This document shows, one piece after another, positions 86 to 33,009 of a DNA stretch of 49,415 bases (position 1 is the first letter of the stretch; every line of letters starts with the position of its first letter). A program made the position numbers and the translations under genes. The notes under the pieces are model-generated. The model had not been told where the DNA came from. It was given only the letters and a program-made list of their open reading frames with translations, and did not search any database. Source of the DNA: an uncultured Methanobrevibacter sp. (GTDB lineage: Archaea > Methanobacteriota > Methanobacteria > Methanobacteriales > Methanobacteriaceae). The stretch covers positions 1 to 49,415 of the forward strand of contig CADBPS010000042.1 of NCBI GenBank assembly GCA_902796575.1. Reading direction: 5' to 3'.

Positions 86-541
86 TTAAATGACAATAAT
101 GTTGGAAGTGTGGGATTCCTTATATTGTTCATCACCTTCAAAATATGAATTAACCTCGTGATTACCTTCACTTAGCGTTAGATTAATTTTAGCCAAGCCT
201 TCAGAGTCTGTTCGAAGTGTATACGTATCATTATTAAACTCAACATTAACAAACTTGTCAGCCAGAGGCTTATTGTCCGCATCACTTAAAAGAACAACAT
301 ATTCTGTGGAAGAATCAAAATTGGACTGAGAAACCATTGAAAGACTGGTTTCAACCTTACTAGATCCAGTGAATAAAAATACCCCAATAACAACTATTAT
401 CAGAATAGCAATGCCTATTAAAATCCACTTTGAATCTAAGGATACCTTATTTTCCGACCTTTTAATATATGATCCGCATTCTGGGCAAAAGAGAGAATCA
501 TCCTTAATCTCACAGCCACACTTTCTACAATACTTTGCCAT
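86..541 (-). CDS. Zinc-ribbon, single-TM, Ig-like domain membrane protein
   Basis: 151 residues if the ATG at 541 is used; a longer frame to 589 adds a weak hydrophobic stretch before the obvious zinc ribbon. Residues 5-22 form a zinc ribbon with two CxxC pairs (C5, C8, C19, C22). A transmembrane segment follows at about 38-58 and an Ig-like beta-sandwich domain at about 70-151, so the ribbon is cytoplasmic and the Ig domain external. A related Ig module is in the membrane protein at 40265-40882. This zinc_ribbon_2 plus Ig layout is common in Methanobrevibacter. Function unknown; a role in envelope sensing or assembly would be a guess. Confidence 0.75.
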   Translation of the reverse strand: MAKYCRKCGCEIKDDSLFCPECGSYIKRSENKVSLDSKWILIGIAILIIVVIGVFLFTGSSKVETSLSMVSQSNFDSSTEYVVLLSDADNKPLADKFVNVEFNNDTYTLRTDSEGLAKINLTLSEGNHEVNSYFEGDEQYKESHTSNIIVI

Positions 542-587
542 GATATAATATAGTGTAATTTGAATTAATAAAATTTTTTCTTTAAGC

Positions 588-604
588 ACAAATTATATAT
601 GCTG
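588..604. promoter_or_regulatory. Shared TATA region of divergent genes
   Basis: An AT-rich near-palindromic TATA-like block (ATTATATATG) lies between the start at 541 on the minus strand and the start at 625 on the plus strand. It is about 25 bases from plausible starts in both directions. The + gene has only a weak ribosome binding site, so a short or absent leader is likely. Confidence 0.4.
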
Positions 605-17767: not shown

Positions 17768-17794
17768 TTTTAGTTAATATGAAATTAACTAAAA
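17768..17794. terminator. Perfect 11-bp inverted repeat over the YhgE stop codon
   Basis: TTTTAGTTAAT and ATTAACTAAAA with a 5-nt loop cover the stop codon of the YhgE-like gene; a T7 run follows at 17753-17759 on the minus strand, just before the tfs ribosome binding site. It may end the YhgE transcript or lie in the tfs leader. Confidence 0.5.
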
Positions 17795-19543
17795 TAATCC
17801 GGATTCTTCAAGTTTCTTTTCAAAGTAATGAGCAGCATCATCTGCCCTTTCCTTAATGATAAGACATATTATAACAGTAGCTACTGCAATAGCTATTAAA
17901 ACCCAAAAGGATGGCATATAATTACTCCAGAGCAAACCTAAAGTAGCTTCCCTTACAATGTTTATAGCATATGTCATCGGCAGATACGGGTATAATGCTT
18001 TAAAAATAGGATCCATAATTTCAATCGGATAAATACCACCAGTACCTGAAATCTGAAATACCAGAAGAAGAATAGATATCGCTTTTCCAATATGTCCCAG
18101 TGCCGAAAAAACAGAATATACAAAAATCATAAATACAACTGAAACAAATGCACATGAAAAAATAAACATCAGCGGATTTGAAATACTAATTCCGATTATA
18201 AATGACAATGCAATTGTTACTGCAGACTCCAGTAATGCCATTACTATAAATAATGCCAATTTTCCAAAGTACATTTCCAATGGACTGTATTTTGTTCCGG
18301 TACTTGTACCAGGCCTTATCATTACACATGTGATTAAAGCACCAACCCACATGGATAATACTAGATAAAATGGTGCTACCTGTGATCCATAATTATCAAC
18401 AGGATATAATTCAACTGTATCCAGCGTTATTGGGGAATAGAAATAGTCACCCAATGCTGTTTCATTAATACCAGTTACACCTGCAAGTGAATTTGACGCA
18501 CCTGCAAGTGCTGAAGCTGCTGTTACTAATGCATAAGCTGCAGAACTTGACAATAATTCAGCTCCAGCAGCTAAACTTAATGAACCTTCAGCAAGTTCAG
18601 TTGATCCTCTGGCCAATTGAGCAGAACTACTTGCCAGATTTATTGAACCATTGGCAAGATTATTTGAACCCTGTGCCACCTGAGAACTTGCATTAGCCAA
18701 ATCCAATGAAGAGGATACGACCTGCTTTACCTGACCTTCAGGAAGCTGACTTACATCAACAGCTGATTCAAGTTGTGATGCACCTTCCTGAACCTGACTC
18801 GAACCTTCCTGAACCTGAACAGCTCCCTCAGAAACTTGATCTGCTCCGCCTTCTATTTGAGAAGCTCCATCCGAAACCTGAGCTGCTCCAGATGACACCT
18901 GACCTGCACCGCTTGAAACCTGACTCGCTCCTGAAGAGAGCTGTGCTGCCCCGGAAGACAGCTGTCCTGAACCTGCAGAAAGTGATGACTGCAGTTCACC
19001 TAATTTTGCATATGCAGCCAAGTTTATAAATTCTACGATTTTAGCATTGATCTCTTTATAAACGGCATTTGCCGCCTGCTGTGAAATTCTTGGAGCAACA
19101 GGGTTTGTCTTCTCATTAACCACATAATACAACTTCGCAGTTTGAGGATCTTCTGTAGTGATTGAAACAACATTTTCACTCAGGTTTTTGGGTATTACTA
19201 TTCCCGCATAATAGGTTCCATTTTTAACCCCCTCTCTCAGGTCACTTTCACTAACATAAACCCATTTGAAGTTCGTATCATTTTTCAGTCCATTCACCAA
19301 TTCATTACCTACATTCAAATCTAAACCCTCATATGTTGTTCCATTATCCAAATTTGCAACTGCAAATTCCATGTTACCTGTTTTTTCATATGGATCCCAA
19401 CATGCTTCAATATTCAAAATTGCATATAATGAAGGTAAAATTATTATAGCTATTAGTGTTGCAACAACAATTGGATTTGAAAAAGCTGCTTTAAAATTAT
19501 CTTTTATTAACTCAATAATATTATTTATGTCTCTTCCAGCCAT
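17789..19543 (-). CDS. YhgE/Pip-type membrane protein with repeat-rich external domain
   Basis: 584 residues from ATG 19543, which has GAGGT six bases upstream; a longer frame to 19597 lacks a site. One TM segment lies near residues 24-44, then a large external domain, then about five TM segments of the ABC-2 permease type at the C-terminus. The external domain contains many copies of an 11- or 7-residue Ser/Gly/Ala/Gln unit (SSGAAQLSSGASQVSSGAGQ and relatives). These are the hallmark helical repeats of YhgE/Pip proteins, which in Gram-positives include phage receptors and type VII secretion-linked proteins. Own TATA box near 19600. Function in archaea is unknown. Confidence 0.85.
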   Translation of the reverse strand: MAGRDINNIIELIKDNFKAAFSNPIVVATLIAIIILPSLYAILNIEACWDPYEKTGNMEFAVANLDNGTTYEGLDLNVGNELVNGLKNDTNFKWVYVSESDLREGVKNGTYYAGIVIPKNLSENVVSITTEDPQTAKLYYVVNEKTNPVAPRISQQAANAVYKEINAKIVEFINLAAYAKLGELQSSLSAGSGQLSSGAAQLSSGASQVSSGAGQVSSGAAQVSDGASQIEGGADQVSEGAVQVQEGSSQVQEGASQLESAVDVSQLPEGQVKQVVSSSLDLANASSQVAQGSNNLANGSINLASSSAQLARGSTELAEGSLSLAAGAELLSSSAAYALVTAASALAGASNSLAGVTGINETALGDYFYSPITLDTVELYPVDNYGSQVAPFYLVLSMWVGALITCVMIRPGTSTGTKYSPLEMYFGKLALFIVMALLESAVTIALSFIIGISISNPLMFIFSCAFVSVVFMIFVYSVFSALGHIGKAISILLLVFQISGTGGIYPIEIMDPIFKALYPYLPMTYAINIVREATLGLLWSNYMPSFWVLIAIAVATVIICLIIKERADDAAHYFEKKLEESGLF

Positions 19544-19597
19544 ATTAAACCTCATTATTTTATTAAACATTAAGAAAGCCAAATTCACCAGAAACAT

Positions 19598-19961: not shown

Positions 19962-20300
19962 TTAACCTTCTACCATAATCAGCCGCCCTGTCGCGGGATC
20001 TTTATAAACTTTACCCATTTCAGTATAACCCTGACCTGAGCTATTGGAAGTATCTGGAGTCTCGTTTAGTTCCTGACCCTGGGTAACTTCAGAAACCTGC
20101 TTCATAGCATTCATTACTTCCTGTTTTTGATCCTGTGTCATATCATCATTGAAAACAACACTCTGCATATTCCAGCTCATGATTACAAAAACAAGAAAGC
20201 CAACTGCAATAACAAGCATAGCATCAACAAGGTTGGAAGTACCTGCCATAGGGTCTTCTTCAACACGTCGAGACCGTCTTCTTTGTTTTCTTCTAACCAT
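19962..20300 (-). CDS. DUF2149 small one-TM protein, ExbD/TolR-like partner
   Basis: 112 residues from ATG 20300 with GTGAT five bases upstream. The basic N-terminus (RRKQRRRSRR) is followed by a short lead and one TM segment at about 28-48 (LVDAMLVIAVGFLVFVIMSW), then an external tail. This topology, and the LVDAML motif resembling the ExbD/TolR TM entry, fit a partner for the MotA/TolQ/ExbB protein encoded immediately upstream. DUF2149 is a methanogen family of unknown function. An acidic residue inside or near the TM (the D of LVDAML) may serve in proton use, by analogy with ExbD. Confidence 0.75.
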   Translation of the reverse strand: MVRRKQRRRSRRVEEDPMAGTSNLVDAMLVIAVGFLVFVIMSWNMQSVVFNDDMTQDQKQEVMNAMKQVSEVTQGQELNETPDTSNSSGQGYTEMGKVYKDPATGRLIMVEG

Positions 20301-20308
20301 ACATATCA

Positions 20309-20953
20309 CTATTTATTCATATAATCTAGAACTGCATCGGATAAAGCATCCAAATCAGATAAATAACGATCATACCATCCGCTTCTGATTTTACCGATAA
20401 CATAACATAAAGCACCGGAACCAATACCAACAATAGTTGTGTTAAACGCAAGAGTCAAAGATTCAGCTAATGTGGTAACATCTCCAGTACCCAAAGCAGC
20501 AAGCCCCGGACCCATAGGAATTAAAGTACCCATTAATCCTAAAGTAGGACCTATACGTGTAATAATATCGGTCTTTTTCAATGTACTATCAATTTTTTCT
20601 TCTTCAAATTCAACTAATTTACGAGCTAAAGCTTCACGGGAGTTATTATCTAACTCGGAAGAATTAGCAATTTCACTTAAAATCTTTTTCTGGGATTTAG
20701 GAATATCTGCACTGTCAATAATACTATTAAGTGCACTAACAGACTCGGCTGCATTAATATCATAAATCAAATCCCTAATAGTTCCAACAGGAACTTTTTT
20801 TCTGGAAGTATATTCAGATATTGCTCCACCAAGAATAATAATTGAAAAAATAACGATAATTAATAAAATAATCAATACCGGAATTGTTAAACTTTGTGAA
20901 ATAACATCCAAAGCGCCTGTTAAATATTCCCCACCAGGTATAGCAACACTCAT
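20309..20953 (-). CDS. MotA/TolQ/ExbB proton channel family protein
   Basis: 214 residues. TM1 lies at about 23-45, a cytoplasmic helical loop follows, then two C-terminal TM segments with the TolQ/ExbB signature IGPTLGLMGTLIPMGPGLAALGTGD and the AFNTTIVGIGSGAL segment. ExbB-type proteins form a proton channel that drives a one-TM partner. Here the partner is the DUF2149 protein that follows within 10 bases. DUF2162 precedes by 14 bases. Proximity to CobN implies energised metal or tetrapyrrole handling. Confidence 0.9.
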   Translation of the reverse strand: MSVAIPGGEYLTGALDVISQSLTIPVLIILLIIVIFSIIILGGAISEYTSRKKVPVGTIRDLIYDINAAESVSALNSIIDSADIPKSQKKILSEIANSSELDNNSREALARKLVEFEEEKIDSTLKKTDIITRIGPTLGLMGTLIPMGPGLAALGTGDVTTLAESLTLAFNTTIVGIGSGALCYVIGKIRSGWYDRYLSDLDALSDAVLDYMNK

Positions 20954-20967
20954 TTAATCACCATTAA

Positions 20968-21678
20968 TCATTCTAAAAGACTTTTACTTTTCTTATTTAA
21001 AAATATACCAATAATTACCAAAATAACCAGTATAATTACAACACCAATTATTGATTCAAAGGAAGTTATGGTTGGAGATGAGAAATCCTTACTTAATGAA
21101 CCAGCTATATTTGGAATTACAATAGCTGAAAGTAAAAAGTAAGCCCCTAAAAGCAACATGAAATTTCCTAAAATAATTGGATATGGTTTATTAATAAGTT
21201 TAGTAATAGTATTTGATGCAAAATACGTAATGACAATAACTGCAACTAATGTAGCGGCAGCATACCAACTTAAATAAAATGCGCCTACACCAATAGTAGG
21301 TGCTACAATTAATATACTAGCTACAATAGAACCGAAACAACAAGGACATGGGGCTATAACTGCAAGAGAAGTAGCAGTACTAGTATTGTGATTGTGAACC
21401 TTCCATTCCCTTATCGTAATTAAACCAGCAATAATCATTATCAAAGCCATAATAATATAAAAAATTGTATTGTAACTATAAATGGCCTGAGTAAGTTGTT
21501 CTGCATAAAGGGATGCAACAGCAGAAATCAGCAGGACCCCACCCCCATACCCTACACAGATAATAGCAAGTAATTTTTTTGACAAATTGGCTAAACCCGA
21601 TGCTAAACCCACTTTTATACCAAAAACAAGTATAGCAGCAATTATACCAAATTGCCATAACATAGACATCATATCCAT
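20968..21678 (-). CDS. DUF2162 polytopic membrane protein
   Basis: 236 residues with about seven TM segments. A CPCCFGS motif near residue 110 places adjacent cysteines at a membrane boundary, and GLASGLANLSKKLLAIICVGYGGG near the start recalls DsbD/CcdA-like or LysE-like folds. DUF2162 is annotated as a predicted transporter in methanogens and co-occurs with CobN-type genes. GAGGAT precedes the ATG, and a TATA box (21742-21749) sits upstream. It starts the three-gene operon with the ExbB-like and DUF2149 proteins. Substrate unknown. Confidence 0.75.
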   Translation of the reverse strand: MDMMSMLWQFGIIAAILVFGIKVGLASGLANLSKKLLAIICVGYGGGVLLISAVASLYAEQLTQAIYSYNTIFYIIMALIMIIAGLITIREWKVHNHNTSTATSLAVIAPCPCCFGSIVASILIVAPTIGVGAFYLSWYAAATLVAVIVITYFASNTITKLINKPYPIILGNFMLLLGAYFLLSAIVIPNIAGSLSKDFSSPTITSFESIIGVVIILVILVIIGIFLNKKSKSLLE

Positions 21679-21741
21679 AATAAATCCTCACATTATAAAA
21701 TTAATAAAAATCAAATACACTTAACACTATATTTTTCAAAC

Positions 21742-21749
21742 TATATAAA
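21742..21749 (-). promoter_or_regulatory. TATA box of the DUF2162-ExbB-DUF2149 operon
   Basis: TTTATATA read on the minus strand, 64-71 bases upstream of the ATG at 21678. Confidence 0.5.
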
Positions 21750-21761
21750 TATAATAAAAAA

Positions 21762-21782
21762 AGAGATAAAAATATTATCTCT
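21762..21782 (-). terminator. Terminator hairpin after the CobN-like gene
   Basis: AGAGATAA and TTATCTCT with a 5-nt loop; on the minus strand the stem is followed directly by TTTTTTT. It lies 6 bases past the stop codon. Confidence 0.65.
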
Positions 21783-21787
21783 AAAAA

Positions 21788-24700
21788 TTAAAATTCGTCA
21801 TCATTCTTTTTCCTAAAGTAACCGAAAGAAAAAATTCCAACTAAACAAATAACACAAATAATCAAAGGAATAGACATTGACTTTTCAGTAGTCGCACTGC
21901 TGCTTGAAACAGACTTCTCAATATCATAACTTTTAGATGAATCTGAAGCACTTTCACTTGCATCCTCAGAGTTATAATTATCTGAAATACTGGATGAGGC
22001 AGAAGACTGGGAAGAATCCTCACCTACACTTCTTCCAGAATCAGCATGAGATATACCTGAAGTTGAAGTGTCTGCTTTCAGATTTGAAGAAGATGAATTA
22101 GTTAAAATATAATTTTCCGTTGAATTTAAACCAGCATTTTCGTCAGCATTTACATCAGGACTGCTGTTAGGATTATTTTGGAAGTTAACAGGATTGAAGA
22201 AATTATTATTTGTGGCTTTAAAGAGTTCCTCTGCAAATCTTGCAAGCAAATCAGGGTTGATGAAATTAACAGCCCACTGCATCATAGCAATGTTACCGCA
22301 GCTACAGTCACAGCATGCAACACCATTTGTAATTATTGCTTGTGACCATGCATTGGCAAGTTCTGATAAAGTTTCAGGATCAGCATTCCAGTAATTTTCA
22401 AAAGCAGCTGTTAAAAGTGTTCCGGCTGCAGATATGAATGCATAATTATTATTGCCTGATTTCAACCAGTCAGTAACCCCAATTCCATATTTATCTTTGA
22501 AATAAATATTATATGCATCATCCCACATCTTATTTGTAACGGCTGAAGGCCTTGTTACAGACCATCCCAACAAGTCTGTTAAGAATTTGTTAGATATGTA
22601 TCTGGCACCACTGTAACCTTCCTGCATCATTCCTGAAATCCATTCAGGATTTGAATATCTTGTAATTATTTCATTAGAAATTGCCTGTTCTATTGAAGTG
22701 GAATAAGGATTATTTTTGTTTCCATACATCAGCACATTCATTTTTGGAGTATTACCGTTAACATAGGCCATTGTCATTGAAAGTCCACCCCAGTAGTCAA
22801 AGAAATCATCATTATCCAAAACACCGTACACATTGGTATTACGGCTGACAATCAAATCATTGGTATTGTTGAGTACTCTTGAAAATACTGTAGGATTGGT
22901 TTCTCCCCAATAGTATTTTGAATACATATTACCCATTCTTCCAAGATAGAACCTTGACAGCTCATCAGTATCATTCCAGGTCCAGCTTAGAGAAACGGAT
23001 TTTGCAATTCCAGCACCATAATCCCCAGTTGGCGGGGCGAAAATACGTGTAATGGCACATTCAGCGGCATATGTATTGTTATAACCTAATGTTTTATAGT
23101 AAATAAAATCACTAACCCAATGTTTGGAGACATAATTTTCATCAAATGATTCATTTCCAAGACCATAATAGCTTATACTTTCCATTATGTGAGTTAAACC
23201 TTCGTTTAAATCATTGAAATATTCACTGTCTTTTAAATCTTTGTTGTTTAATATGTAATAATAGGATCTGGCCAATGCAATTCTGAATGCATTATCCATT
23301 AAAATATCCTGAGTTGAATATAAATCTCTGAAATTACCACTTGTTATAACAACAACATCTATTCTTTTTTTAGCCCATCCTTCCGGACGCACTAAATCCT
23401 CTAATTTTACATATGTTGGCATTGACCTTGTTTTTGTTCCAAGACTGACTTCTTCATCATCATGTTCATGATCATCATGGTCATCATCCACTTCAACATG
23501 AGCATATCCTCCCGCACTAGGTGAAGATGTATATACCGGTTTCATTCCAAGCAGGTATAGTACAACTGAAACTAATGCACCGTCGTCCCTTGCGGTTTCG
23601 ACACACCATATACCGATAGCCAGTTTTTCCGTATCGTCAACCAGTGAATCAAGTGCAAGCAGTGTTAATATTCTGCCGTACTCATATGCATCGGATGTCG
23701 GAAGTTCCTGTGACTGGTCATGGAAAAAATTACTTCCGCTTGGAAGTGAATTTATATCTAGGACATCACCGGCAGGACCCGGAGCAATGTACTTTCCATT
23801 TAATGCATCAACAAATGAATCCAATTCAGTTTGAACAGATGACCTGATTAAAGATATGAATAATTTTGCATAGTCAAAGGCAGCTATTAAACTGGCGGAA
23901 TGAACACCAATTACCTGAGCTACTTCTTCACTTGTATAGTATATTAATGAAGATACAACATCTGCAGAAATGTTAATTACTTTATTTCTCTCATATGAAT
24001 TCAACTGATCATAATTCTTTGAATATTTTATTTGAGCAATTTCATCATATAGTGAAGTTGTTATTCCATTGTATGTGAATTTTTGAGATAATGCAGCAGA
24101 TACAGACAGACCTATATCTTTATCCGTCCAGTTCTGACCAAGTGCATGCAGCCCCCAGGTGTACATTGAATCCTGTACTGATTTAATGAAAGAATCGACT
24201 TCATAAACTACATCATCATTGGACAATCTATCAAATGATTGATCGTTTAAACCCATAGCTTGGACGTAGTCATTCATCTTAACTAAATGTTTAATTTCAG
24301 ATATCAGTGCATCTTTAGAATTCTGATTTAATGCATTTTCATATTCATTAATCAATCTGGATATTTCCGTTAAATTTCCATAAAGTTGAGTATAAGCTAG
24401 CGGAGAAGTTAAATGAGAAATCATTACTGCAAATCCCCTTCTTTTAGCCTGAATACCTTCACCTAAACCGTCTGAAATATAGAAGTATATCTGTGGAACA
24501 TCTCCAACAACTATTGAACCATAGTCTGTAGTAGACAATAATACCTCTTTACCAGGCAGCCATTCGTGTGTTGCGTGTCTTCCAACAAAAACCATAGCTG
24601 AGGAATAATACTCCTGGAAATAATAGTAAGCAGCCAAGTACTGGTGTGTTGGAGCTACGGCAGTACTGTGGTACAGTGCATCTGAATTAGCTTCCCATCC

Positions 24701-26770
24701 CCTTTGAGGTTCCGGAGCCACAAAGACATTACCGAATGTTAATCCAGGAATTACAAAATATTGGGTTCCATTTCTGGTTATAGTCATTATACTTCCAGGG
24801 GCATCTCCCCATCCGTTTAAACCAGGGACATTAAGCTGTGCCCATTGTGCTTTGTAAGTCAAAAAGACATCATAATCAGAATCCAAACCAGTTTTTAAGT
24901 ATTTGTTAAGTGAAGATACAATATTGTCTAAAATAGGAGTAGCTCTACTAACATAATCACTAGGCAATAAAGCGGTGATTTCACTATACCAGGTAGTTAA
25001 GCGTTCATTCATAGGAGAGGTATAATTAATAGATATAGCTATTCTAGACAATTCACCTATATAAGCAACCGGTCCTTCAATTACCTGCAATTTGGAAATA
25101 TCTTCCAGACTGTTAAACCACTTTAAATACTCATCAACAGGAAGTAAAACCACGTTTGAATTGTTTGCAAGTTTTTCCAATTCACCAGGAGCCCATGTAG
25201 CAACATTAATACCTGTTTTTATTATCATGTCTTCCAGTTGACTGGCATTTTGCGGCAACTCTCCAACATCATAACCCTCTGATTTCAAAGTCAGCAGCAG
25301 ATTATAAATACTGGTAATTGAATCAAGATAACTGGAACCGATATTTTGTTTACCCGGAGGGTAATTGTAATATATTAATGAAATTTTTTTGTTTGCATTT
25401 TCACAATATTTTAAGTCAATCCATGAAATTATTCTGTCTGTAAATAAGTCAATATTTACTTCATGGGCCTTGTAACCGGTACGCAATGCTCCGGTTACGG
25501 GAGATATTTCATGGGTAACCCCACCGACAAATGTTGATTCAATAATTCCCTGCGCTTCACCAATAGCTACATGCCACCATTTATCACTACGGTTTCCAGG
25601 CAGTCCAGTGACACTAAGTTCCCATTCTTCATTGCTGACATAATCAGAATGTACTGCTCTAAATACAGGAACTCCCATTGCTTCAAAGCAACTGGTTACA
25701 TTATCAAATAATGTTCCGCCTATACCATAAGCAGGCATTGAAACTATAGCATCAACATAACAATCATAGGAAGTAGGATTTTTTAAAAATTCACTATAAT
25801 TTGGAGCATTAGTGAAATATTTAATCATTACTTCCAGCTGGTCCTGGGATCCTCCCGCAGCGACTACCGGTATTACATTCGCATCTTTTGATTCAAGAGA
25901 TCCTATTATTTTATAATATGGTTCTAGCGCTACACTTGACACATACATATTACTTTCAAGTAAACCAACAGTGTATTTCCTAGAGGAGCTAAAGAACAAT
26001 GCTTTATATTCCTCTAAAGTCAAATATCTATCTCTGTATATACCGTACTGATAGGATTTATGAAAAGAGGGTTCACCATACTGACAATTAAAACCAACCA
26101 TATTCAGTGCCCAAAGAATTTCATTCAATTGATTTTCCTTGTCATTGCAATTTTTATATAAAACCGCTTTGCTGAATTCTGCATTTACTTTTTTACCATT
26201 TCCATGGGTAACATAATCGTATACATCATCATAGCTTAAGCCTCTTTTAGTTTGAGTGAAATATTCATTTAAAAACTCATCGCTATATACAGAATTATCG
26301 AAGATTTTAGTGTAATTAATAGTTGAATGTTTAACCAGGTTAAATGATTCCAATTTAGAAGTTGCAGATGTTTGCAGTATTAAAAACAGCCCCTTATTTG
26401 ATAAATTAGGATCTTTATTTAAAATATTAGTTAAGACTGCATCTGCATCACTGGTCAGCCAGTTAACAATAACAATGTCACTTTCATTAACCAGATTATA
26501 GATTTCATCCTCTTTCATGGAATACACTTGATCACAACTTCTTACCTGAATGTTTACATTGGAATAATTATTTGAAACCTCTTTGGCTGCTGAATCAAAA
26601 ACATTGGTTCCGCCATTGTCACTGATTAATAATACTGATTTATCACAATCAGAATCAGAAGAAATTAAATTATCATCTGCAAAACATACATTGAGAGAAG
26701 TTATGATTAAAATGATGAAAAATATTAAAAATATCATTTTATGATTAAAAATCGATTTTACACCATTAAT
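21788..26770 (-). CDS. Membrane-anchored extracellular CobN/magnesium-chelatase H-like protein
   Basis: A CobN-type chelatase large subunit of at least 1649 residues (numbered from ATG 26737). It begins with a signal sequence ending near CFADD and ends with a Ser-rich linker, one TM helix (IPLIICVICLVGIFSFGYF) and a basic tail (RKKNDDEF), so the catalytic body faces outside. Family landmarks include EPQRGWEA, FVGRHATHEWLPGKE and GDVPQIYFYISDGLGEG. A His/Asp-rich insert lies at ~1079-1097 and a CCDCSC cluster at ~1471. The only good ribosome binding site (GGAGG, 26778-26782) is 7 bases before an in-frame ATT at 26770, which adds a basic signal-peptide n-region; ATG 26737 has none. True CobN inserts cobalt in the cytosol; an external role in metal or tetrapyrrole capture is inferred. 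Confidence 0.85.
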   Translation of the reverse strand: MNGVKSIFNHKMIFLIFFIILIITSLNVCFADDNLISSDSDCDKSVLLISDNGGTNVFDSAAKEVSNNYSNVNIQVRSCDQVYSMKEDEIYNLVNESDIVIVNWLTSDADAVLTNILNKDPNLSNKGLFLILQTSATSKLESFNLVKHSTINYTKIFDNSVYSDEFLNEYFTQTKRGLSYDDVYDYVTHGNGKKVNAEFSKAVLYKNCNDKENQLNEILWALNMVGFNCQYGEPSFHKSYQYGIYRDRYLTLEEYKALFFSSSRKYTVGLLESNMYVSSVALEPYYKIIGSLESKDANVIPVVAAGGSQDQLEVMIKYFTNAPNYSEFLKNPTSYDCYVDAIVSMPAYGIGGTLFDNVTSCFEAMGVPVFRAVHSDYVSNEEWELSVTGLPGNRSDKWWHVAIGEAQGIIESTFVGGVTHEISPVTGALRTGYKAHEVNIDLFTDRIISWIDLKYCENANKKISLIYYNYPPGKQNIGSSYLDSITSIYNLLLTLKSEGYDVGELPQNASQLEDMIIKTGINVATWAPGELEKLANNSNVVLLPVDEYLKWFNSLEDISKLQVIEGPVAYIGELSRIAISINYTSPMNERLTTWYSEITALLPSDYVSRATPILDNIVSSLNKYLKTGLDSDYDVFLTYKAQWAQLNVPGLNGWGDAPGSIMTITRNGTQYFVIPGLTFGNVFVAPEPQRGWEANSDALYHSTAVAPTHQYLAAYYYFQEYYSSAMVFVGRHATHEWLPGKEVLLSTTDYGSIVVGDVPQIYFYISDGLGEGIQAKRRGFAVMISHLTSPLAYTQLYGNLTEISRLINEYENALNQNSKDALISEIKHLVKMNDYVQAMGLNDQSFDRLSNDDVVYEVDSFIKSVQDSMYTWGLHALGQNWTDKDIGLSVSAALSQKFTYNGITTSLYDEIAQIKYSKNYDQLNSYERNKVINISADVVSSLIYYTSEEVAQVIGVHSASLIAAFDYAKLFISLIRSSVQTELDSFVDALNGKYIAPGPAGDVLDINSLPSGSNFFHDQSQELPTSDAYEYGRILTLLALDSLVDDTEKLAIGIWCVETARDDGALVSVVLYLLGMKPVYTSSPSAGGYAHVEVDDDHDDHEHDDEEVSLGTKTRSMPTYVKLEDLVRPEGWAKKRIDVVVITSGNFRDLYSTQDILMDNAFRIALARSYYYILNNKDLKDSEYFNDLNEGLTHIMESISYYGLGNESFDENYVSKHWVSDFIYYKTLGYNNTYAAECAITRIFAPPTGDYGAGIAKSVSLSWTWNDTDELSRFYLGRMGNMYSKYYWGETNPTVFSRVLNNTNDLIVSRNTNVYGVLDNDDFFDYWGGLSMTMAYVNGNTPKMNVLMYGNKNNPYSTSIEQAISNEIITRYSNPEWISGMMQEGYSGARYISNKFLTDLLGWSVTRPSAVTNKMWDDAYNIYFKDKYGIGVTDWLKSGNNNYAFISAAGTLLTAAFENYWNADPETLSELANAWSQAIITNGVACCDCSCGNIAMMQWAVNFINPDLLARFAEELFKATNNNFFNPVNFQNNPNSSPDVNADENAGLNSTENYILTNSSSSNLKADTSTSGISHADSGRSVGEDSSQSSASSSISDNYNSEDASESASDSSKSYDIEKSVSSSSATTEKSMSIPLIICVICLVGIFSFGYFRKKNDDEF

Positions 26771-26848
26771 ATTAAAACCTCCATTTGAAAAAAACCAAAT
26801 AAAAAAGTTCCTTTCAATATAATAATAAATGGCTTAATATTAATAAAG

Positions 26849-26864
26849 ATAATTAAAGTATTAC
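26849..26864 (-). promoter_or_regulatory. 16-base element in the CobN-like promoter
   Basis: ATAATTAAAGTATTAC occurs here and identically at 31149-31164 upstream of the DUF3344 gene, in both cases next to the inferred TATA region. An inverted GTAATACT lies at 26890-26897, 25 bases away. Confidence 0.6.
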
Positions 26865-26897
26865 GAATCAAATAAAATTATGGGAAAAAGTAATACT

Positions 26898-26933
26898 AAA
26901 AAAAATAAGGAGAAGTTTATTGATAAACTTCTC
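26898..26933 (-). terminator. Terminator of the DUF3344 gene
   Basis: A perfect 11-bp stem (26910-26920 with 26923-26933, 2-nt loop) overlaps the stop codon and is followed on the minus strand by CTTATTTTTTTT. Confidence 0.75.
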
Positions 26934-29900
26934 TAAGCAGTAATATTAATAGTATTTGCAATACTGCAACCGTCGTAAGTTGATGTTATAATGTATATAC
27001 CTGCAGGTAAGTTAATATTTAATTTTGCCTGACCAGTTTCATTGGTTGTCCGTTTATACATCACACCATTAACATTGAATTCAACAGTCTTATTGTAGTA
27101 TGGCTGACCTGTTTTATCAACTAAAGTAACAACAAATGGGTCTTTAGTACCTTGTTTTTTGACTAAATCATCAGCAGATAAAGTCGAGAGTACTTCAATA
27201 TTATTGGATATTGTACAGTTCTTATATTCAGCAGTAACAGTGTAATTGCCTGCAGGCAAGTTGATATTTAATTTTGCAACACCACTGGCATTTGTTTTAC
27301 GTGTGTAAAATACACCGTTAATGTTAAATTTAACACTTTCACCTTCACCAACAGGATTACCGTTATCATCCACTAAGGTAACGTAGTACTGAGTATCATT
27401 CTGGAAGTATTTTGTGATATTTTCACCGATAATTCTTGGAAGAACAGTAATATTATTAGATTTTAGTTCGCCAGATTCAGGATTATATGCAGTAATGATA
27501 TATTCACCCTGTGGTAAGTTAATATTTAATTTTGCAGTACCGTTGGTGGTTTTACGGATATATTTTATACCGTTAATATTGAACTCAACAGAACTATTAT
27601 CTTTTAATTTATTACCTTCACTGTCAACAAATGTTGCATAGAATTGGGTACCGTTTCTGAAAACCTTAACTACATCATCAGCTTCAACGGTAGGTTTAAT
27701 AGTAAGTGTAGTGTTTACAGTTACATTATCAACAGTAATATCAACAGGATAATCACCACTGCCTAAATTAACCGCCATGGATATTGTACCATTTTCATTA
27801 CTTCTTCTTGTGTAGTTTTTACCGTTAAGATTAATAGTAGCTGTTTTATTAAACAATGGATTGCCTAAATAATCAGTTACATTAATAGTAAGATTTTCCT
27901 TATCACCGTAATATTTATCATTACCTGCTACAACATTGATTTTGACATCTTTAAATTCAAGTGCAATAATATCAGCTAAAGCTAAAATAGTTGAACCGGT
28001 TGATTCAAAAGCAATGGTATTTTCATCTAAAACTTTACCACTTACATTTGCTTTAAAGTAATCAAGGGAATTTGATGAACCATTCCAGACATTAGTGTAA
28101 GTTTCATTGTTAAAGATGACATTTCCTTCACCGTTTTGAGCACCTGCACCAATAACATATAATTCCGCACCGATAACATTTCTGCTGTCGAAATCCATGA
28201 AAGTATATGAAATGGAATCGAGATTAACATATTTGGATAATAAATCAGCATTTTCAGAAATATAAACTACTTTGTAAGTTTCACTTTCATTATTATCAGT
28301 TAATAATATTAAAGCAGGCGGATAAACAGCACAGCTACCATTGTTTTTAAGTAAATTCAAGGTATTTTCACCATCAACCAATAAATCAGTTACATTATAA
28401 ACAACTAAACCGTAAGCATATTTACCATAGGTACCCATATTGGACTGGTCACGATAATTAGCTATTGGAGCTATAGTGGCATTATTGAATGTAATATTCC
28501 AGTTGTTAAAGTCATCACCTATTTTATCCCAATTGTAACCTACATAAAGCAGTCCTTCTTTAACATCCAAATCAGTAACATTCCATGTGACTGTTCGGTT
28601 GGTAACACCAGTACCAGCATAAGCAGTGTCATTTTGAGTTAAAATAATAACATCACCGTTAATTTCGTAAACGCGAGTAATAGTACCGTTGGATGCAGGA
28701 TAAGCATAATCTTTACCTAAATTACCATTGTACAATACATTATATGAAACATTGGTTGAGTTTAAAAGATTGCCGAATCTGTCATAAATTTCAAGAGTAT
28801 AATTGGTTTTTGTATTATTAGCACCATTAACAGTAGTTTCATCAATAGGCCTTATTTTAGAATCAATGAATGTTAAATTTTGAGAGGAATTACTGTCAAT
28901 ATTTAATTCCTGAGAGTCAATTTCAACACCATCATTTAATAAGACTACAGTACCGTTAATTTTTTCGTTGGAGTTTTTAATATTAATTGTTAAAGTATTG
29001 TTGACACCAGCAAAAATGGTGTTTGCATATTGTGGAGTAATAGTAGCATTTACTGCATAAAGATCATCATCTATTTCACAGACAATAATGCTTTGAAGAG
29101 ATAAAATGGTTGATCCGGTAGACTGGAAATAGATGGTATTATTGGTGTCAATAATATCCGTTATATCCTCTACAAAACAAGCAATAGAATTACCTGTACC
29201 GTTCCAAACATCAGTAAATGTTTCATCGTTAAAGATGATGTTTCCTTCACCACTTTGAGCACCAGCACCGAAAACATATAATTCTGCACCAGCCAGATTT
29301 TCAGTGTCAATATCTATAAAGGTATATGCACCAGAGTCAATATTAGCATATTTAGATAATAAATCAGCATTTTCAGCTATGTAAACAGTTTTATGAGTTT
29401 CGCTTTCATTATCATTGGTTAATAATAATAGAGTAGCAGGATAAACAGCACAGCTGCCATTGTTTTTGAGTAAATTCAAAGTATTTTCACCATCAGCAAG
29501 TAATGCGGTTACATTATAAACAACTAAACCGTAAGCATATTTACCATAGGTACCCATATTGGACTGGTCACTATAATTAGCTATTGGAGTTATAGCAAAG
29601 TTGTTAAAGGTAATATTCCAGTTGTTAAAGTCATTACCTATTTTATCCCAGTTATAAGATACATAAAGTAATGCTTCTTCAACATCAGATTCATTGAAAT
29701 TCCAGGTAGATGTACGATTAGTAACACCAGTACCTGCATAAGCGCTGTCATTTTGATTTAGAACAATAACATCACCAGTGATTTCGTAAACTCTGGTAAG
29801 GGTACCATTGGATGCTGGGTAAGCATAATCTTTACCTAAATTACCATTATACAATACAGTATATGAAGCATTAGTTGAGTTTAAGAGATTTCCATATGAA

Positions 29901-31069
29901 TCATAAATTTCAAGAGTATAATTAGTTTTTGTATTGTTAGCACCGTTAACAGTGGTTTCATCAACAGGTCTTATAGTAAGATCCATTAAATCAACAGTTT
30001 TACTTTCATTAGCTGCAATATTTACATCCTGAGATGCAACTTCTTCACCATCATTTACAAGTACAATAACACCACTGAAAGCTTTACCCGTATTATTAAG
30101 AGTGATTGCTAATGTATTGTTAACACCTGCAAAAATAGTATTTGAATACTGAGGTTTAATAGAAGCGCTTATAGTGGAATTTTCAACATTATGAACTTTT
30201 AATAATTGAATAACTGATTTGAATGACCCATATCCTTCATTGGATGCAGTGTATGTGAAATTGGTGTCTTCTCCTTTTACAAATTCATCAGTTATGTCCC
30301 AAAGTGAATATTTAAACATGTGTGAATCTTCGTAATCAATCGGATCAGTTAACAAATTATCATTCAACTTGTATGTTGCATCATATGTAGACAGACCAAT
30401 ATTTTCAAAGGTAACAAAATCATATTCACCGTCAAAGTCTTTGGTGGAAACAGTATTTGTTCTTGTAGCTTTAGTCCATGATTGACCCGCATTTAACCAG
30501 TAGGTAATATTATCGTTATCACCATCATTATAAGCAAATATTAAAGCTATTAATTTAATTCTTCCATCAAATGAATAACCAGACATGTTTGTATTAACAA
30601 CAGATATCTTAATTTCATCTCCAGAAGTTAAATCTTTAACATTATCTGTAATATCATAAATCATTTGATATGAATCATATTGTCTTGTTGTATGATTATT
30701 AATAGGGTAAACAGTTGGATCATTTGCAGTATTTTCACCGAATACCAAAGTTTCATAACCAAGTACAGTTGTTGTATTATTTACGGTTAATGATACATTG
30801 GAATATAATCCATAGGTTGGAGCACCACTACCCGAATAATCATTTACAATTACATTAACTGATTTTATTTCACTTACATCATCAGGGACAGTATATGACA
30901 ATTCGCCAGATGTTTCCCAAGGATTTTCAGTCGCTATATCGACATCCCCTGAGACAGATCCCTCATCGATTAAAGGCATTGCATTATCTTCTGCAGAAAC
31001 AACACCTAAAGATATTATGATAATAAATGAAAAGAAAATCATGCATAAAAATTTATTTTTAAAATTCAT
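26933..31069 (-). CDS. Secreted DUF3344 / Ig-repeat surface protein
   Basis: 1378 residues. A signal peptide (basic start, hydrophobic core, cleavage near VVSAED) leads into three DUF3344-like modules at roughly 40-300, 405-690 and 750-1030. The second and third are close duplicates sharing phrases such as YNGNLGKDYAYPASNG and YNWDKIG. Four Ig-like repeats of about 85 residues form the C-terminus (~1035-1378), each with an FNINGVxYxRKT-type strand. There is no C-terminal TM or sorting motif, so it is released or held non-covalently. GGAGGAGAACT precedes the ATG. Shared promoter sequence with the CobN-like gene suggests joint work. Adhesin-type Asn/Thr richness hints at glycosylation. Confidence 0.85.
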   Translation of the reverse strand: MNFKNKFLCMIFFSFIIIISLGVVSAEDNAMPLIDEGSVSGDVDIATENPWETSGELSYTVPDDVSEIKSVNVIVNDYSGSGAPTYGLYSNVSLTVNNTTTVLGYETLVFGENTANDPTVYPINNHTTRQYDSYQMIYDITDNVKDLTSGDEIKISVVNTNMSGYSFDGRIKLIALIFAYNDGDNDNITYWLNAGQSWTKATRTNTVSTKDFDGEYDFVTFENIGLSTYDATYKLNDNLLTDPIDYEDSHMFKYSLWDITDEFVKGEDTNFTYTASNEGYGSFKSVIQLLKVHNVENSTISASIKPQYSNTIFAGVNNTLAITLNNTGKAFSGVIVLVNDGEEVASQDVNIAANESKTVDLMDLTIRPVDETTVNGANNTKTNYTLEIYDSYGNLLNSTNASYTVLYNGNLGKDYAYPASNGTLTRVYEITGDVIVLNQNDSAYAGTGVTNRTSTWNFNESDVEEALLYVSYNWDKIGNDFNNWNITFNNFAITPIANYSDQSNMGTYGKYAYGLVVYNVTALLADGENTLNLLKNNGSCAVYPATLLLLTNDNESETHKTVYIAENADLLSKYANIDSGAYTFIDIDTENLAGAELYVFGAGAQSGEGNIIFNDETFTDVWNGTGNSIACFVEDITDIIDTNNTIYFQSTGSTILSLQSIIVCEIDDDLYAVNATITPQYANTIFAGVNNTLTINIKNSNEKINGTVVLLNDGVEIDSQELNIDSNSSQNLTFIDSKIRPIDETTVNGANNTKTNYTLEIYDRFGNLLNSTNVSYNVLYNGNLGKDYAYPASNGTITRVYEINGDVIILTQNDTAYAGTGVTNRTVTWNVTDLDVKEGLLYVGYNWDKIGDDFNNWNITFNNATIAPIANYRDQSNMGTYGKYAYGLVVYNVTDLLVDGENTLNLLKNNGSCAVYPPALILLTDNNESETYKVVYISENADLLSKYVNLDSISYTFMDFDSRNVIGAELYVIGAGAQNGEGNVIFNNETYTNVWNGSSNSLDYFKANVSGKVLDENTIAFESTGSTILALADIIALEFKDVKINVVAGNDKYYGDKENLTINVTDYLGNPLFNKTATINLNGKNYTRRSNENGTISMAVNLGSGDYPVDITVDNVTVNTTLTIKPTVEADDVVKVFRNGTQFYATFVDSEGNKLKDNSSVEFNINGIKYIRKTTNGTAKLNINLPQGEYIITAYNPESGELKSNNITVLPRIIGENITKYFQNDTQYYVTLVDDNGNPVGEGESVKFNINGVFYTRKTNASGVAKLNINLPAGNYTVTAEYKNCTISNNIEVLSTLSADDLVKKQGTKDPFVVTLVDKTGQPYYNKTVEFNVNGVMYKRTTNETGQAKLNINLPAGIYIITSTYDGCSIANTINITA

Positions 31070-31140: not shown

Positions 31141-31164
31141 ATTTAAATATAATTAAAGTATTAC
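31141..31164 (-). promoter_or_regulatory. TATA box and shared 16-base element of the DUF3344 gene
   Basis: ATTTAAATAT at 31141-31150 is the likely TATA box, with the 16-base element found also upstream of the CobN-like gene directly behind it. A second AGTATTAC lies at 31189-31196, 32 bases away in direct orientation, toward the divergent PaaK-like gene. Confidence 0.6.
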
Positions 31165-31266
31165 TATGTAAATAAAAATATCAAAAAAAGTATTACTGAA
31201 TTAAATACATTTAAGGTTATTGAAAAACATAAAATACAACCATCAAAATAATAATGGGGCGAATCA

Positions 31267-32568
31267 ATGATATGGAATGAAGAAATAGAAACTATGTCAA
31301 GGCAAGACCTTGAAGAATTACAACTTAAAAAACTTCAAAAAACAGTGAAACAAGCATTTGATAAAATACCATACTATAATAAAAAATATAGTGCATTGGA
31401 AGTTTATCCTGAAGATATAGAAACTTTAAAAGATATAGAAAAATTGCCTTTCATAACAAAAGATGATTTGCGTGAAAGTTATCCATTCGGACTTTTTGCT
31501 GTAGATATAAAAGATATAAAAGAACTTCACTCATCATCCGGAACCACAGGAAAACCTGTTGTATCAGGATATACTGAAAAAGACCTTGATACATGGGCAG
31601 AAACAATAGCACGTGGATTAACGATGATGGGAATTGGTGAAGAGGATATTCTTCAAAACACACACGGATACGGAATGTTCACAGGAGGATTCGGAGTGCA
31701 CTACGGTTCACATAAAGTAGGCGCAGCAATAATTCCAATTTCAACAGGACAGACCAGAAGACAAATTGAGATAATGCAGGATTTCGGTACTACAGGACTG
31801 ATATTCACACCATCATACGGAATACACCTTGCTGAAGTTGCAATCGAAGATGGAATAGATCCAAAAGACCTGAATATAAAAGCAATAGGTTTCGGAGCTG
31901 AAATGTGGACGGAAGAAATCAGACAAAAAGTGGAAGATCTCTATGGGGCAAAAGCATATAATATATACGGACTGACTGAACTGATGGGACCTGGTGTGGG
32001 AATCGAATGTGAAGCGCAAAATGGACTGCACATACCTGAAGATATATACTATCCTGAAATAATAGACCCTAACACCCAGGAGGTACTTGGACCAAATCAA
32101 AAAGGAGAGCTTGTTTTAACAAACCTTGAAAGAGAAGGAATGCCAGTCATACGTTTTAGAACAAAAGATTTGACTGAAATAACTTATGAAAAATGTGACT
32201 GCGGAAGGACACATGGAAGAATAAGCAGAATAACAGGCAGGTCAGATGATATGATAAAGGTAAAAGGAGTAGCAATATTCCCATCCCAAATCGAAAAGGC
32301 ATTATTGAATGCCGGAGACGTTGAACCTCATTATATGATAATAGTCACAAGACCTGAAACATTGGATAAAATTGAAATAAAAGTGGAAATATCCGAAGAC
32401 ATCTTCTTTGATGGTGTAAAAGAAATGGTATCAATCAAAGAAAGAATTGAAAAGTCAGTTGAAAATGAAACAGGTATCAGAGCTAAAATAACACTTGTTG
32501 AACCGAAATCACTACCAAGATTTGAAGGTAAAGCAAAACGAGTTATAGATGAACGGGATTTACATTAG
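31267..32568 (+). CDS. Phenylacetate-CoA ligase-like adenylate-forming enzyme
   Basis: 433 residues. Landmarks are LPFITKDDLRESYPFG, the P-loop SSSGTTGKPVVSGYT, YNIYGLTELMGPG and a C-terminal ITGRSDDMIKVKGVAIFPSQ. This is the PaaK family size and order. It activates an aryl or acyl acid to its CoA thioester with ATP. In methanogens it often goes with a small ACT protein, as here, and is thought to salvage aryl acids (phenylacetate, indoleacetate) for aromatic amino acid synthesis. GGGGCGAATCA precedes the ATG. Confidence 0.9.
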   Translation: MIWNEEIETMSRQDLEELQLKKLQKTVKQAFDKIPYYNKKYSALEVYPEDIETLKDIEKLPFITKDDLRESYPFGLFAVDIKDIKELHSSSGTTGKPVVSGYTEKDLDTWAETIARGLTMMGIGEEDILQNTHGYGMFTGGFGVHYGSHKVGAAIIPISTGQTRRQIEIMQDFGTTGLIFTPSYGIHLAEVAIEDGIDPKDLNIKAIGFGAEMWTEEIRQKVEDLYGAKAYNIYGLTELMGPGVGIECEAQNGLHIPEDIYYPEIIDPNTQEVLGPNQKGELVLTNLEREGMPVIRFRTKDLTEITYEKCDCGRTHGRISRITGRSDDMIKVKGVAIFPSQIEKALLNAGDVEPHYMIIVTRPETLDKIEIKVEISEDIFFDGVKEMVSIKERIEKSVENETGIRAKITLVEPKSLPRFEGKAKRVIDERDLH

Positions 32569-32577
32569 GTGATTAAA

Positions 32578-33009
32578 ATGAAAATAAAACAATTATCAAT
32601 ATTTTTACAGAATAAAATTGGAAGCTTATCTAATCCATTGAATATTCTCAGCGAAGAAAATATAAACATCAGGGCACTAAGTATGGCAGATACATCGGAA
32701 TTTTGTATTTTAAGGCTTGTTGTTGATAATCCGGATAAAGGAAAAAAAGTTTTGGAAAATAATGACTTTCTTGTGAAATTAACAGAAATTATTGGTGTTG
32801 AAATGAATGATACCCCGGGCGGTCTGACCAATGTTTTAAAAATACTTAAGAACAACAATATTGATTTGGAATATTTATATGCTTTTACTCATGAAAAAAT
32901 TGGAAAAGCTATTTTATTAATACATACCAATGATAACGACAAATCAATTGAAGTATTAAAAAATAACAACACAGAAGTTATTTCACCTGAAGAAGTATAT
33001 AATCTGTAA
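32578..33009 (+). CDS. Tandem ACT-domain protein
   Basis: 143 residues from the ATG at 32578, which has GGTGAT four bases upstream; that site overlaps the PaaK stop, so the pair is coupled. Two ACT modules are visible (KQLSIFLQNKIGSLSNPLNI at the start; TPGGLTNVLKILKNNNID at ~80). ACT domains bind amino acids, so it probably senses an aromatic amino acid to control the ligase or its pathway. The ligand is inferred. Confidence 0.88.
   Translation: MKIKQLSIFLQNKIGSLSNPLNILSEENINIRALSMADTSEFCILRLVVDNPDKGKKVLENNDFLVKLTEIIGVEMNDTPGGLTNVLKILKNNNIDLEYLYAFTHEKIGKAILLIHTNDNDKSIEVLKNNNTEVISPEEVYNL

Follow-up and report, generated by a model that had tools for sequence, protein, structure and literature searches.

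A contig of 49,415 nucleotides from an uncultured Methanobrevibacter sp. (CADBPS010000042.1, assembly GCA_902796575.1; hereafter the window) carries a five-gene module built around a CobN-like protein. We propose, with a probability of about 0.6, that this module acquires nickel. It would be switched on at nickel starvation through a NikR-type operator, and its exported chelatase would free nickel from a chelate outside the cell with the help of a proton motor. The proposal draws on gene content, predicted export signals, conserved motor residues, and an operator with its neighbouring genes, all read from sequence. Nickel, needed for Mcr, hydrogenases and CODH, limits methanogens, and little is known of how they take it up (PMC10617489). 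The 2025 HmuS paper leaves it unclear what archaea do with their many HmuS/CobN homologues; if we are right, a dominant clade of these homologues is tied to nickel starvation. The genes of the module are as follows:

26933..31069, minus strand: DUF3344 surface protein, 1378 amino acids, with signal peptide, two DUF3344 domains and C-terminal Ig-like (Big_3_5) repeats
21788..26737, minus strand: CobN/HmuS-type class I chelatase-like protein, S component, 1649 amino acids (Pfam, HmuS match, hydropathy)
20968..21678, minus strand: DUF2162 multi-spanning membrane protein, T component (Pfam; PCPxC motif, Cys111 and Cys114)
20309..20953, minus strand: MotA/TolQ/ExbB-type proton channel homologue, U component (Pfam; conserved GPxLGLxGTLIPMG)
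19962..20309, minus strand: DUF2149 protein with one transmembrane helix, V component, ExbD-like by layout (Pfam; Asp29 at the start of the helix)

All five open reading frames lie where a first-pass annotation of this DNA, made without database searches, had placed them, and the families it named are confirmed by Pfam matches over the curated cut-offs (DUF3344, 1.5e-100, plus Big_3_5; CobN-Mg_chel, 2.8e-209; DUF2162, 1.6e-68; MotA_ExbB, 3.3e-10; DUF2149, 2.4e-23). Gaps of 195, 109 and 14 bp separate DUF3344 from cobN, cobN from DUF2162, and DUF2162 from the ExbB-like gene, which overlaps the DUF2149 gene by 1 base. Two things had been overlooked. One is a pair of operators, at 26858-26896 and 31158-31196. 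The other is the gene order: CobN-DUF2162-ExbB-like-DUF2149 is the hmuS-T-U-V order of the Bacteroidota hmu operons. The window thus holds an hmuSTUV-like core without HmuY and TonB receptor; its locus consists of S-T-U-V with DUF3344 in front, and no gene for HmuY or a receptor is found there. The annotation had spoken of a new kind of uptake, which goes too far: Bacteroidota hmu already has the S-T-U-V core, with a haem de-chelatase as S. The novelty lies in the link with nickel starvation in archaea, in the operator with its regulon, and in the reading of a motor exchange set out below.

The module is widespread. DUF2162 occurs in 130 and CobN in 119 of 152 Methanobacteriota genomes. We surveyed the neighbourhoods of 40 fetched loci together with the window and found, as the annotation had expected of methanogens, that the families travel together. 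The DUF2162, ExbB-like and DUF2149 genes (T-U-V) are contiguous wherever all three can be read; at a few loci one or two of them are hidden in the gene calling under a longer overlapping reading frame. CobN adjoins T-U-V in about half of these loci, and DUF3344 often does.

The operator and its neighbours

26858..26896, no strand assigned: inverted-repeat operator GTATTAC-N25-GTAATAC, 39 bp, upstream of cobN (pattern search)
31158..31196, no strand assigned: direct-repeat form GTATTAC-N25-GTATTAC (as read on the plus strand), upstream of the DUF3344 gene (pattern search)

The sequence AGTATTAC occurs 7 times in the window against 1.9 expected, a count reached in 0 of 100 shuffles, and four of the copies lie in two promoter regions. 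Across 41 loci, half-sites are enriched ten-fold upstream of cobN, DUF3344 and DUF2162 genes, chiefly before the first two. With up to one mismatch allowed, 16 of 38 upstream regions of cobN or DUF3344 hold a site; shuffled regions gave a mean of 0.02 and never more than 1. Exact sites are present in 19 of 20 whole genomes, at 1–5 each, and a reversed-pattern control finds 0. The one-mismatch operator appears in other genera of the phylum too, over the control in most. The half-sites are spaced 24-26 nucleotides apart, chiefly 25. The window's own 1.97-Mb genome has 2 exact sites and 6 with up to one mismatch (2 in the reversed control); the six precede cobN, DUF3344, two NikA-like genes, a NikD-like/GNAT pair and a cation-efflux gene.

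What does the operator mark? Almost all of the exact sites examined (50 of 53) adjoin either the CobN/DUF3344 module or a recurring set of genes: NikA-like proteins, NikD/CntD-like ATPases with a divergent GNAT gene, CbiM/NikM, thermonicotianamine synthase (NAS), Hmd with HmdC, a HisA/F-like gene, and a periplasmic-binding-protein (PBP2) gene. GNAT, HisA/F and the binding protein are counted in the set because they recur; we read the operator as a nickel operator because NikA, NikD, CbiM, NAS and Hmd are among its neighbours. In Methanothermobacter, where a cluster runs thermonicotianamine synthase, FmdE-domain protein, CobN, TUV, sites stand before the FmdE-protein gene and before the CobN gene. 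The synthase of this cluster is identical to the crystallised enzyme over 262/262 residues. At another locus (L267, G145:C1:351500-361500), an exact operator precedes genes for a ChlI/D-type AAA+/VWA protein, an ECF-type membrane protein, CbiQ, a double ABC ATPase and a cytosolic CobN, a nickel- or cobalt-linked operon with the classical ATP motor.

A nikR gene is present in the window's genome. Known NikR operators read GTGTTAC-N13/14-GTAACAC in delta-proteobacteria and GTATGAT in enterobacteria, and GTaTTAC is a documented half-site variant, found at D. desulfuricans hydAB, which encodes a Ni-independent hydrogenase (PMC545781). NikR-type half-sites separated by N25 therefore suggest either NikR binding half-sites that lie a further helical turn apart or a related regulator. 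Hmd, found next to the operator, is the nickel-free hydrogenase that methanogens raise when short of nickel (PMC3087415, PMC12350162). In M. marburgensis, Nomura et al. found a protein annotated CobN1, and NikR1, to be abundant only under Ni limitation, with Hmd also up (PMC12350162). MTBMA_c10550-10570 has been described as one CobN-like chelatase (PMC3087415), and our locus L044, whose CobN is split over three reading frames, fits it. The numbering is close, and with L044 it suggests that the CobN1 of the proteomics may be the TUV-linked copy; MTBMA_c10520 to c10600 probably make up the cluster of TUV, CobN, FmdE and NAS genes.

The exported chelatase-like protein and its partners

24575..24577, minus strand: codon of His721, which corresponds to the catalytic His538 in HmuS of B. 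theta (alignment)
22805..22807, minus strand: codon of Asp1311, which takes the place of His1209 in HmuS (alignment)
21815..21874, minus strand: C-terminal transmembrane anchor of the CobN-like protein (hydropathy and sequence)
23450..23509, minus strand: His/Asp/Glu-rich insert of the CobN-like protein, GYAHVEVDDDHDDHEHDDEE, residues 1077-1096 (sequence)

The CobN-like protein begins with MIFLIFFIILIITSLNVCFADD, a signal or anchor by hydropathy, and ends in SIPLIICVICLVGIFSFGYFRKKNDDEF, by the same measure a transmembrane helix. It is predicted to be exported, membrane-anchored and extracytoplasmic; the secreted, anchored protein of the first-pass annotation holds up, and a cytosolic location is not borne out. 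No second CobN was found in the window's genome (86% complete). The nearest solved structure is that of the HmuS haem dechelatase (PDB 9d26, E 1.7e-91). His721, in the sequence GRHATHEW (the HmuS motif is HFG(T/A)HG), is conserved in 108/108 proteins. In the column of HmuS His1209, 103 of the 108 have Asp and only three, all of them HmuS, have His; in the window protein the HmuS motif LSLDHxxEFMGG is replaced by LDNDDFFDYWGG, with Asp in the place of His1209. The haem ligands Met79 and His254 correspond to Leu and Ala in a loosely aligned head-domain column, and the Met-rich insertion (domain IV) of HmuS has no counterpart at the corresponding place. Because it lacks the haem ligands and the second active-site His, we regard the window protein as a cousin of HmuS and not as HmuS. 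In a quick tree of 104 proteins, with long branches, it groups with exported CobNs of archaea in a well-supported clade that is separate from HmuS.

The His/Asp-rich insert that had drawn attention in the annotation is real but not a family feature: apart from the window protein, only its nearest relative (L066) shows it clearly, and L051 has a weaker trace. We considered a nickel store in this insert and rejected it, since the insert is not conserved in the family. In the genus of the window protein, a second type of exported CobN lies beside DUF3344 (L258 5117-9829, L259 4000-8778), with no operator in the fetched stretch; it is perhaps a paralogue for another metal.

By analogy with HmuS, which is a haem de-chelatase, the CobN-like protein would be a class I (de)chelatase working outside the cytoplasm, where it removes nickel from an extracellular chelate. 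That chelate would most likely be a nickel tetrapyrrole, for example F430 from dead methanogens, or possibly a nickelophore.

What would power such an enzyme outside the cytoplasm? With the U profile, structures of TolQ, MotA and ExbB give weak but consistent matches (E 6e-4 to 0.01), and the channel residues in its GT and TT positions are kept (T143 in 100%, T172 and T173 in 81 and 88%). In V, the single transmembrane helix and the acidic residue at its start bear out the annotation's ExbD-like description as far as layout goes; of 102 homologues, 101 have Asp at position 29 and one has Glu. Both cytosolic archaeal CobNs that were examined lie next to ChlI/D; in one case a CbiQ/ABC set is also present and an exact operator stands in front. 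Exported CobNs have U and V as neighbours instead, and in TUV-CobN loci no ChlI/D-like gene is found save three at a distance (L048, L138, L010). From this exchange of partners we infer that proton flow through U-V drives S. The ExbB-like/DUF2149 pair would be a motor in the cytoplasmic membrane that powers the conformational cycle of the CobN-like protein, taking the place of the AAA+ ATPase (ChlI/D or CobS/T) found with cytosolic class I chelatases. Methanobacterial archaea have no outer membrane, so U-V cannot serve to energise a TonB receptor in them.

We extend this only tentatively to exported class I chelatases as a group. All of them may have replaced the AAA+ ATPase of their cytosolic kin with a proton-driven ExbB/DUF2149 motor, making a general extracytoplasmic machine for metal extraction that was retargeted to iron from haem in Bacteroidota, to corrinoid or cobalt in Desulfobacterota and other groups, and to nickel in methanogens. 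Since archaea without an outer membrane have this machine, U and V would act at the cytoplasmic membrane rather than through a TonB receptor. The 2025 HmuS paper draws HmuU and HmuV as powering haem import together with the outer-membrane receptor; the archaeal case argues against that picture and suggests that chelation chemistry outside the cell is driven by protons.

Released Ni2+ would be imported by DUF2162, the putative permease, together with the co-regulated NikA-type and CbiM/NikM importers. The PCPxC motif of DUF2162 is near-invariant (C111 in 72 and C114 in 70 of 73 homologues), and the predicted model is all-helical. With this motif the protein might instead be a CcdA/DsbD-like electron conduit, but the Bacteroidota T protein lacks PCPxC, and the fold match to CcdA is non-significant (E 1.3, TM ~0.4).

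DUF3344 would be a beta-sandwich protein at the wall surface, serving as scaffold to capture the ligand or anchor the complex. Its two domains in the window protein are 73% identical to each other, and the AlphaFold2 model of one is all-beta (pLDDT 85.5). A fold search with this model returned only low-TM matches to jelly-roll proteins, so no function can be assigned from the fold. A DUF3344-like fragment of 167 amino acids also lies at the contig edge (window 86-589). The partnership with DUF3344 is not confined to archaea: a verrucomicrobial locus (L118 6815-12834) has DUF3344, ExbB-like, DUF2149 and CobN genes in a row. In Methanothermobacter, the FmdE-domain protein between thermonicotianamine synthase and CobN (966 amino acids; L042 15676-18576) is perhaps a functional stand-in for DUF3344.

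Divergent from the DUF3344 gene in the window is a phenylacetate-CoA-ligase-like and ACT-domain-like pair (31267-33009), and a pair of similar size (437 and 146 amino acids) adjoins CobN-less TUV copies in related genomes. At 17789-19597 lies an archaeal YhgE/Pip (EsaA-like) ABC-2-type membrane protein with xxxLxxG heptad repeats.

Nickel and the competing cargoes

Several observations weigh against the nickel proposal or parts of it. Bacterial relatives of the module sit mostly in corrinoid operons with cobalamin riboswitches, so the chelatase fold alone does not dictate nickel. Some lineages (L045-L047, L061-L064 and L078) have the module but no recognisable operator. The spacing of 24-26 departs from the 13/14 of NikR, being about one helical turn longer, so NikR is no more than a candidate binder. 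Methanothermobacter has several CobN genes, so it is not certain that CobN1 is the TUV-linked copy. In a fold search the DUF2162 model had no significant match to any solved transporter, and the DUF2149 profile showed no sequence similarity to solved ExbD or TolR up to E 10.

The CobN-like protein might serve the same nickel-limitation module without acting on tetrapyrroles, taking or unloading a small nickelophore such as Ni-thermonicotianamine and passing the metal to DUF2162. Thermonicotianamine synthase under the same operator, its place in the CobN-TUV cluster of Methanothermobacter, and the co-regulation of NikA/CntA-like binding proteins speak for this variant. We nonetheless think it unlikely: characterised members of the superfamily all act on tetrapyrroles, His721 of the central cleft and the acidic motif are retained, and NAS lies elsewhere in most module-bearing genomes. 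Uptake and remodelling of corrinoid or cobalt is what the bacterial relatives suggest. Their T-U-V-CobN sets accompany TonB receptors and genes for CbiZ, CbiK, BtuF, BtuC/D, CbiB, CobQ or BzaF, and cobalamin riboswitches were found at 5/7, 6/6 and 2/7 of the bacterial loci scanned. This sample is biased to relatives of Trichlorobacter because a Trichlorobacter protein was used as the first seed. In Runella the module instead sits between hypF and hypCDE, in a NiFe-hydrogenase maturation operon, and a NicO/DsbD_2-like protein takes the position of T; such differing contexts imply that one core serves different cargoes. For the archaeal module a corrinoid role seems quite improbable. An Rfam scan of the window returned nothing, riboswitches included, none of the bacterial corrinoid genes stands beside the archaeal loci, and the archaeal operator marks nickel genes, the Ni-free Hmd among them. 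The annotation had left the choice among nickel, cobalt and corrinoid open; a metal-uptake role is supported, the operator strongly favours nickel in Methanobacteriota, and corrinoid fits the Desulfobacterota-type relatives with their riboswitches.

Two readings carry still less weight. An HmuS-type de-chelatase that feeds on haem iron would account for the shared S-T-U-V order and for HmuS as the best PDB match, and Methanobacteriota, which cannot make haem, include M. arboriphilus, a user of exogenous haemin (PMC13135261). We hold it to be very improbable: the window protein has neither the Met79/His254 ligands nor the His1209 motif nor the Met-rich insert, and the module is regulated alongside nickel genes, not iron genes. 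Hardly credible is the suggestion, made for MTH673 in 2011, of a nickel chelatase in F430 biosynthesis (PMC3087415), since the signal sequence and C-terminal anchor place the CobN-like protein outside the cytoplasm. The biosynthetic role of nickel chelatase for F430 belongs to CfbA. Acquisition of nickel from an outside chelate remains our preferred reading.

Comparison with known systems

The closest known system is the hmuSTUV part of Bacteroidota hmuYRSTUV. The two have in common the S-T-U-V order, an ExbB-like U, a DUF2149 V, an exported and anchored S, and the catalytic His. The window differs in having neither HmuY/HmuR nor an outer membrane, in the loss of Met79, His254, His1209 and the Met-rich insert, in a DUF2162 protein as T whose PCPxC motif is missing from HmuT, and in its nickel-type operator. 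Trichlorobacter and its relatives have operons of a TonB receptor, DUF2162, ExbB, DUF2149 and CobN, with the same four families, the LDNDD motif of CobN and the T family of the window. Unlike the window, these operons have a cobalamin riboswitch and corrinoid salvage genes, a TonB receptor in place of DUF3344, and CobN last instead of first.

CobNST and ChlHID share the class I chelatase large-subunit fold; they are cytosolic and driven by AAA+ CobS/T or ChlI/D, whereas the window protein is predicted to be exported and is paired with ExbB/DUF2149. The Cnt/staphylopine metallophore system combines a NAS-like synthase with a NikA/CntA-type ABC importer, both also found in the module's regulon, but has no chelatase and no motor driven by proton-motive force. 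With NikR regulons, finally, the window operator shares the inverted type of half-site and, as targets, nickel transporters together with a Ni-free hydrogenase.

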